Origin: Deltaproteobacteria bacterium
GTDB taxonomy: Bacteria > JAGRBM01 > JAHCIT01
DNA length: 64,000 nucleotides
NCBI GenBank assembly: GCA_026129095.1
Contig: JAHCIT010000003.1
Span: forward strand, 186,001-250,000
Reading direction: 5' to 3'
Shown: positions 1,934 through 49,896 of the stretch, piece after piece
Position numbering within the stretch: position 1 is the stretch's first letter
Layout: every line of letters starts with the position of its first letter
Made by a program: the position numbers and the translations under genes
Notes under the pieces: generated by a model
Database searches by the model: none
The model's input: only the letters and a program-made list of their open reading frames with translations
What the model was told of the DNA's origin: nothing

Positions 1934-4315
1934 TTGATTCATGAGCGTCCACCTGATCCCACGTCCAAGAAGCTGGCGCTGCTGGACAAGATCGCCAACC
2001 TGATTGCCCGCTCCCACGGTGTTCAGGACATCCTGGCAAGCATTGTCGTTTCGGTGGCCGAGACGATGGAGATGGACGTCTGCTCGGTGTACCTGCTCGA
2101 CGAATCGGGACAGTACCTGACGCTGGCCGCGACCAGGGGGCTGGATACCGAATCGGTCGGCAAGGTCCGCCTTTCGACACAGGAAGGTCTTACCGGCCTC
2201 GCCATCGAGAAGATGCAGACGGTGACGGTCCGGAACGCACCGCTGCATCCCCGCTACAAGTATTTCCCCGAGACGCAGGAGGAAAAGTACTCCTCGTTTC
2301 TCGCCACGCCGATCATTCTCCGTGAAAAAGCGATCGGCGTCCTGACGATCCAGACGAAAGAGGTCTATGACTTTACTGTCGATGACACGCGGATCGTCAC
2401 GACTATCGCGAGTCTTCTGGGTACGATTATCCAGAACAGCCGGCTTCTGGATTCGATTGATAACTACAAGGCCGCGGCTGACGGCTCCACGTCACGGTCC
2501 CGCAAGGCTGACCGCGAAGGAAAGAAGCCGGAGTCGCAGGCGGCGGCATCTCTCGAAGGCGCGCTGCTTCGCGGGCTTCCTGCATCACCTGGCGTGGCCA
2601 TGGGGCGTGCAGTTGTCACGACGGCCGAGCAGGACGCCCTGTTCCTGGATGATGTTTATCTGGGTGAGAAGCAGGAACTGGAACGCCTCCGTACATCGAT
2701 CAAGGCTGCCGAGAACGACATCAAGGATGCCGAAGCACGGGTTGCGGAAAAGCTGTCTGACGAGGAAGCCAAGATATTCTCCACGCACCTCATGTTCCTG
2801 GAAGACCCTGGCTTTATCGGAAAGATCGAGCAGCGGATCGCCGAGGGCAAGAGCGCGCCGCTCGCTATCCGCGATGTGGTCGGCTCATATGTGAAAATCC
2901 TGAGCGATGCGAAGGATCCGTACGCGCGCGAGAAGGTCATAGACATAGAAGACGTGGGGCGGCGGCTCATCACGAAAATCGTCAACAAGCCCCGGCTCGA
3001 AGTTCCATTCAATGACCGGTACATCCTGGTCTCCCATCTCATCACGCCATCGGATGCGGTGGAAATGGACCCGCAAAAGGTGGTCGGCATGATCTCCGGT
3101 CAGGGCGGCCCGACTTCCCATGCGGCCATTCTTGCGCGGAGCATGGAGATACCCGCCGTTGTCGGCATCGAGGACCAGTACCGCTCGATCCGTACGGGTG
3201 ACTACGTGATCCTCGACGGCAATACCGGCAATATCCACGTCAATCCGCGGCCGGCGATCTTGAAGGAGTTCCGCCGGGTAAAGCGCGAACTGGACCTGAG
3301 CCGCCGGGAACTGGACGATGCCGGCACGGGCAAGGCCAAGACCACCGATGGAGAACGGATCCAGCTCCTTGGCAATCTCAACCTCGTTGCCGACCTGAAA
3401 CTGATCAAGCACTACGGAGCCGAAGGTGTGGGGCTTTACCGGACCGAGTTCCTTTTTCTCATGCACAAGACCTTCCCGGCAGAGGAGGAACAGTTCCGTT
3501 CATACAGCCGTGTGGCGAAGGAACTGAAAACCCAGGGAGCGGTTATCCGCATCCTCGATGTTGGCGGCGACAAGTTCCTGGAAGGCCTCAATGAACGTCG
3601 CGAGGACAACCCCTATCTGGGCTGGAGGTCCATTCGCGTGCTCCTGGACCTGGTTCATGTGTTCAAGGTCCAGCTCCGTGCGATTTTCCGCGCATCTTCC
3701 TTGGGAAAAGTGTCCATTCTCCTCCCGATGGTCACGACGGTGGAGGAAATCCGGAAGGCCAAGGCCATTATCGAGGAGGTCAAGCAGGAACTCCGGCAGG
3801 AAGGCGTTGCGTTCGACAAGCATGTCCCCGTCGGCGCGATGATTGAGGTTCCGACGGCCGTACTCATCGCCGATGCGCTTGCCGCCGAGGCCGACTTCCT
3901 CAGCATCGGCAGCAACGACCTGACCCAGTACGCGCTGGCCGTGGACCGCAACAACCAGCGGGTAGCGAAGATGTACGACAGCCTTCACCCGTCTGTCCTG
4001 AAGCTGATCAAGTGGACGGTGGAAGCCGGAGGCCGGGCCGGCAAGCCCGTGTCGATCTGCGGGGAAATGGGTGCGGACCTGACGGCCCTGCCGGTCCTGA
4101 TCGGGCTCGGGCTCACCAGCTTTTCCATTGCGCCGCCCCTTATACCTGTGGTTCGTTATCTGGTGAAATCGCTTTCGGCCAAGGATTGCCGTGAACTGGC
4201 GGCGGAGGCGCTGACCTGCTCCACGGCGGCCGAGGTGAGGAAGCTCGTTGGAACGGAAATATCGAGGTTGCCGGCCTACCGGCTGACCCAGATACGAAAT
4301 GCGATGAAGGGATAG
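1934..4315 (+). CDS. ptsP: phosphoenolpyruvate-protein phosphotransferase PtsP (GAF-EI)
   Basis: The 793-residue protein starts at a TTG with AAGGAG ten bases upstream. It has an N-terminal GAF domain (about residues 15-165), a linker, then the full Enzyme I module. The phosphohistidine swivel motif GGPTSHAAILAR is visible with His near 396, and the PEP-binding C-terminal barrel ends with the SICGEMGAD active-site Cys near 709. EI-Ntr starts the nitrogen/regulatory phosphotransferase chain (PtsP to NPr to EIIA-Ntr) in the cytosol and is usually tuned by glutamine or small ligands through GAF. No ptsO or ptsN lies next to it here. The downstream SDR gene begins three bases after its stop, so they are probably cotranscribed. 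Confidence 0.93.
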   Translation: MIHERPPDPTSKKLALLDKIANLIARSHGVQDILASIVVSVAETMEMDVCSVYLLDESGQYLTLAATRGLDTESVGKVRLSTQEGLTGLAIEKMQTVTVRNAPLHPRYKYFPETQEEKYSSFLATPIILREKAIGVLTIQTKEVYDFTVDDTRIVTTIASLLGTIIQNSRLLDSIDNYKAAADGSTSRSRKADREGKKPESQAAASLEGALLRGLPASPGVAMGRAVVTTAEQDALFLDDVYLGEKQELERLRTSIKAAENDIKDAEARVAEKLSDEEAKIFSTHLMFLEDPGFIGKIEQRIAEGKSAPLAIRDVVGSYVKILSDAKDPYAREKVIDIEDVGRRLITKIVNKPRLEVPFNDRYILVSHLITPSDAVEMDPQKVVGMISGQGGPTSHAAILARSMEIPAVVGIEDQYRSIRTGDYVILDGNTGNIHVNPRPAILKEFRRVKRELDLSRRELDDAGTGKAKTTDGERIQLLGNLNLVADLKLIKHYGAEGVGLYRTEFLFLMHKTFPAEEEQFRSYSRVAKELKTQGAVIRILDVGGDKFLEGLNERREDNPYLGWRSIRVLLDLVHVFKVQLRAIFRASSLGKVSILLPMVTTVEEIRKAKAIIEEVKQELRQEGVAFDKHVPVGAMIEVPTAVLIADALAAEADFLSIGSNDLTQYALAVDRNNQRVAKMYDSLHPSVLKLIKWTVEAGGRAGKPVSICGEMGADLTALPVLIGLGLTSFSIAPPLIPVVRYLVKSLSAKDCRELAAEALTCSTAAEVRKLVGTEISRLPAYRLTQIRNAMKG

Positions 4316-48133: not shown

Positions 48134-48526
48134 TTAGTAGCCGCCGCGCCCGCCGCGATCACCACGGTCACGGCCGCCGTAGCCGCCGCGCCCGCCGCGG
48201 TCACCACCACGGTCACCGCCGTAGCCGCCGCGCCCGCCGCGGTCACCACCGCGGAAGCCGCCGCCTCCACCGCCACCCGGAGCCCGCTCGCGGGCCTCGT
48301 TGATGGTAAGGTTGCGGCCGTTCAGGGCCTTGCCGTTCAGACCGTCCACGGTCTCACGGATGTTGTCGCCATCGGCGACCTCGACGAAGCCGAAGCCCCG
48401 CGAGCGGCCGGTTTCGCGGTCCGTCACGAGCTTGACGCCCGTGACTTCGCAGCCAGCCTCCTCGAAAAAGCGCTGTACATCTTCTGACGTTGCGTTGTAG
48501 GGAAGATTCCCGACGAAGACTCTCAT
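48134..48526 (-). CDS. RNA-binding protein with RRM and RGG tail
   Basis: The 130-residue protein has one RRM (residues 1-80) with RNP2 VFVGNLP and RNP1 RGFGFVEV. A Gly/Arg/Asp/Tyr tail (about 88-130) follows, made of repeats such as GGDRGGRGGYGG. The fold is that of bacterial glycine-rich RNA-binding proteins, some of which are cold-induced. The tail could drive phase separation or RNA binding. The ATG at 48526 is preceded by GGAG. A strong terminator follows the gene. Its targets are unknown. Confidence 0.88.
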   Translation of the reverse strand: MRVFVGNLPYNATSEDVQRFFEEAGCEVTGVKLVTDRETGRSRGFGFVEVADGDNIRETVDGLNGKALNGRNLTINEARERAPGGGGGGGFRGGDRGGRGGYGGDRGGDRGGRGGYGGRDRGDRGGRGGY

Positions 48527-48935: not shown

Positions 48936-49068
48936 CACCACGCCTCACCACGCCTCACCACGCCTCACCACGCCTCACCACGCCTCACCACGCCTCACCA
49001 CGCCTCACCACGCCTCACCACGCCTCACCACGCCTCACCACGCCTCACCACGCCTCACCACGCCTCAC
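48936..49068. repeat. 10-bp tandem repeat, 13 copies of CGCCTCACCA
   Basis: The unit CGCCTCACCA is repeated 12 times without change from 48941, followed by one copy changed near its end (49061-49070), with a partial copy before it. A period of 10 bases is close to a DNA helical turn. It lies between the divergent RRM and TetR genes, about 30 bases before the TetR promoter. The copy number may vary between strains. Confidence 0.97.
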
Positions 49069-49099
49069 GAACGACTAGTAGAACGCCATTATTTTTATG

Positions 49100-49128
49100 T
49101 TGACAGGGTGCATCAAATCACAATAAAA
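49100..49128 (+). promoter_or_regulatory. promoter-like element for the TetR gene
   Basis: TTGACA lies at 49100-49105 and an AT-rich AATAAAA 16-18 bases downstream could serve as the -10. The start codon is about 25 bases later, with a usable GGGAGG. Confidence 0.45.
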
Positions 49129-49155
49129 CAGTTGTGTTCTTGTAGGGAGGCCCAT

Positions 49156-49896
49156 ATGCAAACCCGACCGACCAGCACCAGAAGCCCCGCCGACGCCGCC
49201 GCGCAAACAAGTACTTCCGCAAGTAACTATACCCCTCCACCCGGCAGGATTCCGGGCAATCTCAGGCCAAATGTCGAGCGTGCCCTCCCCCGCGGACGTT
49301 ACCGGCGGGATCTCTCCCCACAGGACCGCTCCGAGCGCCAGCGTCTTCAGCTGCTCACCGCCGCTGCCCAGGTTTTTGCCGCCAAGGGGTTTGCCGACAC
49401 CGCCGTGGAGGATGTGGTGAAGGCGGCCGGCATGAGCCGGGCCACCTTCTATATACATTTTCAGGACAAGGACGAACTGCTTGGCGAGCTGTACGACACG
49501 GGAGCTTCCGCCACGATCCGCTCAATCCGGCAGGCGGCCGCCGCCGTTCCCAAAAACGAGCCGCTCAAGCGCCTCGAAAAGGCATTCGATACCTATCTCT
49601 TCATGCTCACAAACGGGGGCGATGTGGCCCGCGTGATCGTCAACGAGGTCGCCGCCGGGGGGCCGAAGATGCTGGAGCGCCGGGATCGTGTGCATCAGGA
49701 GTTCATCAAGATGTTCCGCGAACTCGCGGCAAAGGTATATCCCGGCCACACGCCGAGCGACATGACCCTGCTCGCCGTCGTTAGCGGCGTCGAAGGCCTA
49801 GTGTTCAACTACCTGTGGCGCGGCGAGGCCCGGAGGCTCGATTCCGAAGGCCGGGCGGTTATCTTCCGGTTCATGCTGAACGCCCTGAGACCCTGA
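49156..49896 (+). CDS. TetR-family transcriptional regulator
   Basis: The protein is 246 residues from the ATG at 49156, with GGGAGG upstream. Its first 60 residues are polar and likely disordered. The TetR HTH follows (LLTAAAQVFAAKGFADTAVEDVVKAAGMSRATFYIHFQDKDEL) with the conserved Tyr/Phe/His of the recognition helix end. The C-terminal ligand domain is all-helical. The 10-bp repeats lie upstream and could be part of its control region. It may regulate the Tam-like gene that follows 12 bases later. The ligand is unknown. Confidence 0.88.
   Translation: MQTRPTSTRSPADAAAQTSTSASNYTPPPGRIPGNLRPNVERALPRGRYRRDLSPQDRSERQRLQLLTAAAQVFAAKGFADTAVEDVVKAAGMSRATFYIHFQDKDELLGELYDTGASATIRSIRQAAAAVPKNEPLKRLEKAFDTYLFMLTNGGDVARVIVNEVAAGGPKMLERRDRVHQEFIKMFRELAAKVYPGHTPSDMTLLAVVSGVEGLVFNYLWRGEARRLDSEGRAVIFRFMLNALRP

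Follow-up and report, generated by a model that had tools for sequence, protein, structure and literature searches.

What is the role of a 10-bp unit that is repeated 13 times between two divergently transcribed genes? This question is raised by a locus in the window, i.e., the whole 64,000-nucleotide stretch of a Deltaproteobacteria bacterium contig (JAHCIT010000003.1, positions 186,001 to 250,000) that was analysed here. An exact search places 12 perfect copies of the unit CGCCTCACCA at 48941–49060 and none elsewhere in the window, and dinucleotide shuffles of the window contain 0.18 copies on average and never reach 12. The program TRF delimits the array at 48936–49068 (period 10, 13.3 copies, 100% matches), where a half unit precedes the first full unit and an altered 13th unit, CGCCTCACGA, closes the series. 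According to the reading-frame check, no plausible gene overlaps the array. The preliminary description, which had reported 12 unchanged copies and one altered copy in 10-bp steps, outside any plausible gene and between divergent RRM and TetR genes (starting at 48526 on the minus strand and 49156 on the plus strand, respectively), was accurate in these respects, as well as in placing a TetR promoter about 30 bases away, where a TTGACA hexamer starts 30 bp past the array end. Since the source assembly is a 23-contig draft, the exact number of 13 units could be an assembly value. The features of the locus are the following:

48134–48526, minus strand: RRM/glycine-rich RNA-binding protein, the divergent neighbour (PF00076, E 8.8e-19)
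48936–48940, plus strand: half unit CACCA, start of the array (TRF)
48941–49060, plus strand: 12 identical 10-bp units CGCCTCACCA (TRF, exact search)
49061–49070, plus strand: 13th, altered unit CGCCTCACGA
49100–49105, plus strand: putative -35 hexamer TTGACA of the TetR promoter (promoter matrix, score 12.4)
49124–49129, plus strand: putative -10 hexamer TAAAAC (promoter matrix, 18-bp spacer)
49144–49150, plus strand: ribosome-binding-site-like AGGGAGG (direct reading)
49156–49896, plus strand: TetR-family regulator, the co-directional downstream gene (PF00440, E 5.4e-16)

The promoter matrix predicts that transcription of the TetR gene would start near 49136. On the other side, the RRM protein has a glycine-rich tail (48137–48263) encoded by a tandem repeat of its own, with three 42-bp copies that are 84% alike (TRF). 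When the TetR protein was used as a query for relatives, only distant TetR homologs were retrieved; none was an ortholog preceded by an intergenic region like the present one.

The array is not an isolated feature. A genome search for the unit, which the preliminary description had proposed, finds the two-unit pattern at many further places in the same 3.67 Mb genome, with 62 matches when one mismatch is allowed vs. 2 for a reversed control pattern. A search with a sequence model (R1) resolves 23 places, comprising seven copies of a paralogous repeat of about 400 bp and 16 otherwise unrelated sites, and the array in the window is the longest member of this family. A chance or local-only repeat is therefore rejected. 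A purely local product of neutral slippage, or an assembly artefact, would be in keeping with the perfection of the copies and with a draft assembly in which copy number may be wrong, but the unit recurs at 22 other places under the same orientation rule, which refutes the absence of any relation to other loci and makes this explanation very improbable. The unrelated sites score at least 23.7 bits and the background outside known array loci less than 12 bits, a gap that is exaggerated because most of the sites found had served to train the model; two of the 16 sites (C2:530656 and C1:1077) lay outside the training set. No gradual tail of weak sites extends below the unrelated family members, unlike what is seen for many regulators, a distribution that also fits recent copying. 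Outside this genome, the element was found neither in the only phylum relative nor in 384 more distant genomes, viral contigs contain no exact match to the unit, and a single weak match (81%) inside a plasmid gene was judged to be due to chance. Moreover, a literature search for the unit sequence itself retrieved nothing. As far as visible, the element is thus restricted to this lineage, and, since it is absent from the only phylum relative, cross-species conservation cannot serve as evidence.

Alignment of 14 sites defines the basic element as 30 conserved positions formed by three direct 10-bp repeats, CCACGCTTCACCACGGCTCACCACGCCTCA; in the 40 bp flanking it on either side, no column is conserved. 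Units follow one another in 10-bp steps at every site, and the three units are not interchangeable. Unit 2 is of the CGGCTCACCA type in 13 of the 16 sites, which confers polarity and a fixed length on the element, and the last unit mostly contains CGCCTC. The unit matches its own reverse complement at no more than four of 10 positions and, thus, has no dyad, and the reverse complement of the whole element reads (NSCGTGGTGA)x3. It had been suggested that all copies lie on nearly the same face of the helix. Nevertheless, at 10.5 bp per turn each step drifts by about 17 degrees, amounting to about 206 degrees over 12 steps, so that 13 copies cannot share one face. The three direct units of the basic element (CCACGSYTCACCACGGCTCACCACGCCTCA), in turn, would be arranged on nearly one face.

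Among the three ideas initially advanced for the array (protein sites, bent or stiff DNA, or a length switch), an array of protein sites is the best supported, because the unit occurs in the same orientation upstream of about 14 other unrelated genes, whereas a bent or stiff segment is not supported, as direct reading reveals no A-tracts in the array. The protein proposed as the specific binder, the adjacent TetR regulator, fares poorly. An autoregulatory operator array would suit a position 30 bp upstream of the putative -35 box of the TetR gene, and a second TetR gene (L088) also carries the element. However, TetR-family operators are usually palindromic, while this unit is a direct repeat without dyad, and most genes bearing the element encode no TetR protein. 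Therefore, the non-palindromic unit and its wide distribution leave this binder without support, and autoregulation by TetR is scarcely credible. The explanation favoured here, with modest confidence, is that the array represents the expanded form of a regulatory element, specific to this lineage and placed upstream of promoters, that would be recognized by an oligomeric DNA-binding protein.

The gene context agrees with a promoter-upstream element. All 16 unrelated sites are intergenic according to a simple gene calling based on codon statistics, and the downstream gene is co-directional with the element at 14 of the 15 scorable sites (chance p about 0.0005–0.002), L082 being left out of the scoring because its next gene is far and uncertain. 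The exception is L111, which lies between convergent genes; a parS-like palindrome, TGTTCCACGTGGAACA, directly follows the L111 array (near 3000), between hisF and the convergent gene. The element precedes the start codon by a median of about 160 bp, but by only 23 bp at L089. Downstream genes include those for TetR (window), phasin, thiolase, smc, dus, APS kinase, Hsp33, a second TetR, a GMC oxidoreductase, PilZ, HTH_17, and GroES, with no obvious common function. This lack of a common function, together with the positions of L111 and L089, weighs against the operator explanation. In turn, upstream genes are found on both strands, contrary to what a terminator or 3' element would require. A terminator of the upstream gene was rejected on account of this mixed orientation and of the lack of a hairpin with a T-run around the window array.

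Regarding promoters, the best promoter-like matches in 13 downstream regions score above shuffles (p 0.0025) with an approximate E. coli matrix taken from general knowledge, and six of the 13 predicted -10 boxes fall within 13 bp of each other, about 48–60 bp from the array end (p 0.02 for an interval picked post hoc). At its target genes, the candidate operator would be located ahead of the -35 box, and its binder would most likely act as an activator.

The composition of the array, with 80 C and 14 G among 135 positions (59% C and 10% G), suggests a different possibility, namely that its C-rich, G-poor and unstructured transcript could be a Rho loading site (rut) or another RNA-binding target. 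Array RNA is indeed less structured than shuffles (z +2.6), and in tandem gene pairs the array lies about 15–30 bp after the upstream stop codon on the same strand. However, several sites, including those in the window, at smc, and at L082, are situated between divergent genes. There the upstream gene is on the opposite strand and the best predicted promoters are downstream of the array, so the array would be transcribed with neither gene. Moreover, rut sites need no conserved 30-bp sequence, and no known RNA family in Rfam matched the array. An RNA-level function is consequently considered improbable.

If the element is the operator of an oligomeric, sequence-specific protein bound head-to-tail, the manner of binding could be like that of SARP activators, MraZ, or response regulators of the OmpR family. 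Direct repeats spaced by one helical turn, in a fixed orientation upstream of a promoter, are the kind of site to which such head-to-tail oligomers bind. The site of OmpR consists of two tandem half-sites of 10 bp (PMC7380067), an arrangement shared by the element, whose direct repeats follow each other at 10-bp steps upstream of predicted promoters. The genome encodes four DNA-binding proteins of the OmpR type, which counts for the operator reading, and none of their genes has the element nearby. To our knowledge, the sequence of the element is unlike OmpR-family boxes. Among SARP-type proteins, PimR of Streptomyces natalensis recognizes direct heptamers ahead of the -35 box, of which there are three, the optimum number, and its secondary operator has 10-bp units (PMC5930380). 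The element likewise consists of three short direct repeats upstream of a predicted -35 box. However, the main SARP operators are heptamers with 4-bp spacing in 11-bp steps and serve a gene cluster, whereas the element has a 10-bp step throughout its sites, and no SARP was identified in this genome. Among the operators of these three groups, the MraZ boxes resemble the element most. Those of Mollicutes are (AAAGTGKN3)3 (PMC5282649), i.e., three direct, promoter-proximal 10-bp repeats, and the element agrees with them in having three direct units in 10-bp steps, the reverse complement of which shows GTGG in place of the TGG/GTGK core. Nevertheless, the element is found at many unrelated target genes, and no match to PF02381 above the cut-off was obtained in the window's genome or in the phylum relative, so that MraZ was set aside as the binder despite the fitting architecture. 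RsmH, which is nearly universal in bacteria, was also not found in the window's genome. Because neither protein was found in it, this assembly seems to have an altered division gene cluster or to lack it, unless a draft gap is responsible.

The main competitor of the operator explanation is a repeat dispersed through intergenic DNA that has no regulatory function and propagates by copying and slippage, similar to REP-type elements or to the heptameric GGGAATC repeats of Xanthomonas, its placement reflecting only the tolerance of intergenic DNA. In Xanthomonas, the mean distance of these repeats is 28 nt from the preceding ORF and 160 nt from the following one; they occur about equally in both orientations, avoid divergent regions, and no regulatory role was found for them (PMC4692102). 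The likeness is considerable, as both are genome-specific, short intergenic tandem repeats near the upstream ORF and about 160 nt before the next ORF. Furthermore, the family described here is found in one genome only, the seven paralogous copies are proof that unit-bearing DNA spreads, and L077 and L078 have about 135 bp of left flank in common. This flank contains repeated CTCTCCCCCTCTCCGGTTCCCGGAGAGGGGG and is another dispersed intergenic repeat. However, the orientation of the element to the downstream gene is nearly uniform, several sites lie between divergent genes, its exact 30-bp limits without flank homology are unlike transposed DNA, and inspection of the nearest neighbouring genes revealed no recognisable transposase. 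Besides, the Xanthomonas repeats can form G-quadruplexes, whereas no motif of four GG tracts with 1–7 nt loops occurs at the 16 sites; a G-quadruplex repeat was rejected, since the motif is not kept at the 30-bp sites. REP/RAYT-type repeats have palindromic units in random orientation to genes and a linked RAYT transposase; the 30-bp core is a direct and orientation-biased repeat, although the paralogous copies of about 400 bp carry an inverted partner, GAGGTGAGGCG. Because the Xanthomonas repeats are bidirectional and avoid divergent regions, neither of which applies to the element, a dispersed repeat without function ranks second to the operator and is regarded as possible but rather doubtful.

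The paralogous repeats (L072, L074, L075, L079, L081, L085, and L086) contain two arrays each; three of them reach contig ends, and two are followed by a short RHS-like reading frame. These copies differ by exactly one 10-bp unit and, therefore, changes of length in unit steps occur in this genome, which lends support to the recent expansion that the preliminary description had deduced from the unchanged copies. A single unit type, CGCCTCACCA, makes up both the array in the window (13 units) and that of the phasin gene (six units), as expected if slippage multiplied one unit. Slippage would thereby have raised the copy number to 13 in the window and to six upstream of the phasin gene, and, under the operator explanation, such an expansion would alter how many sites are available and, possibly, the expression of TetR. 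A precedent is provided by the TAAA repeats of Neisseria nadA, promoter tandem repeats of variable copy number (PMC3899988). Both are slippage-prone arrays upstream of a promoter that can change the number or spacing of binding sites, although the unit here is 10 bp long and part of a genome-wide element, and no sign of phase variation was seen. Another motif, GTGGTCCARCCAGTTG (TGGT-N3-ACCA), has only three matches in the genome with up to one mismatch, all adjoining 10-bp arrays, at the phasin gene (L071, C4:165660), L082 (C6:170775), and groES (L112, C1:1192). It resembles FadR-type operators.

What looked like an isolated repeat thus becomes a candidate regulon defined by its sequence, in a phylum of which two genomes were included here. 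It may be conjectured, tentatively, that a new global regulator with three-repeat, 30-bp operators controls stress, storage, and housekeeping genes of this organism, and that operator copy number driven by slippage tunes some of its targets, including TetR and phasin. The exact 30-bp consensus and the list of targets make the candidate binder findable by pull-down, and the versions with three, six, and 13 copies in one genome constitute a natural series for examining how expression might depend on operator copy number.
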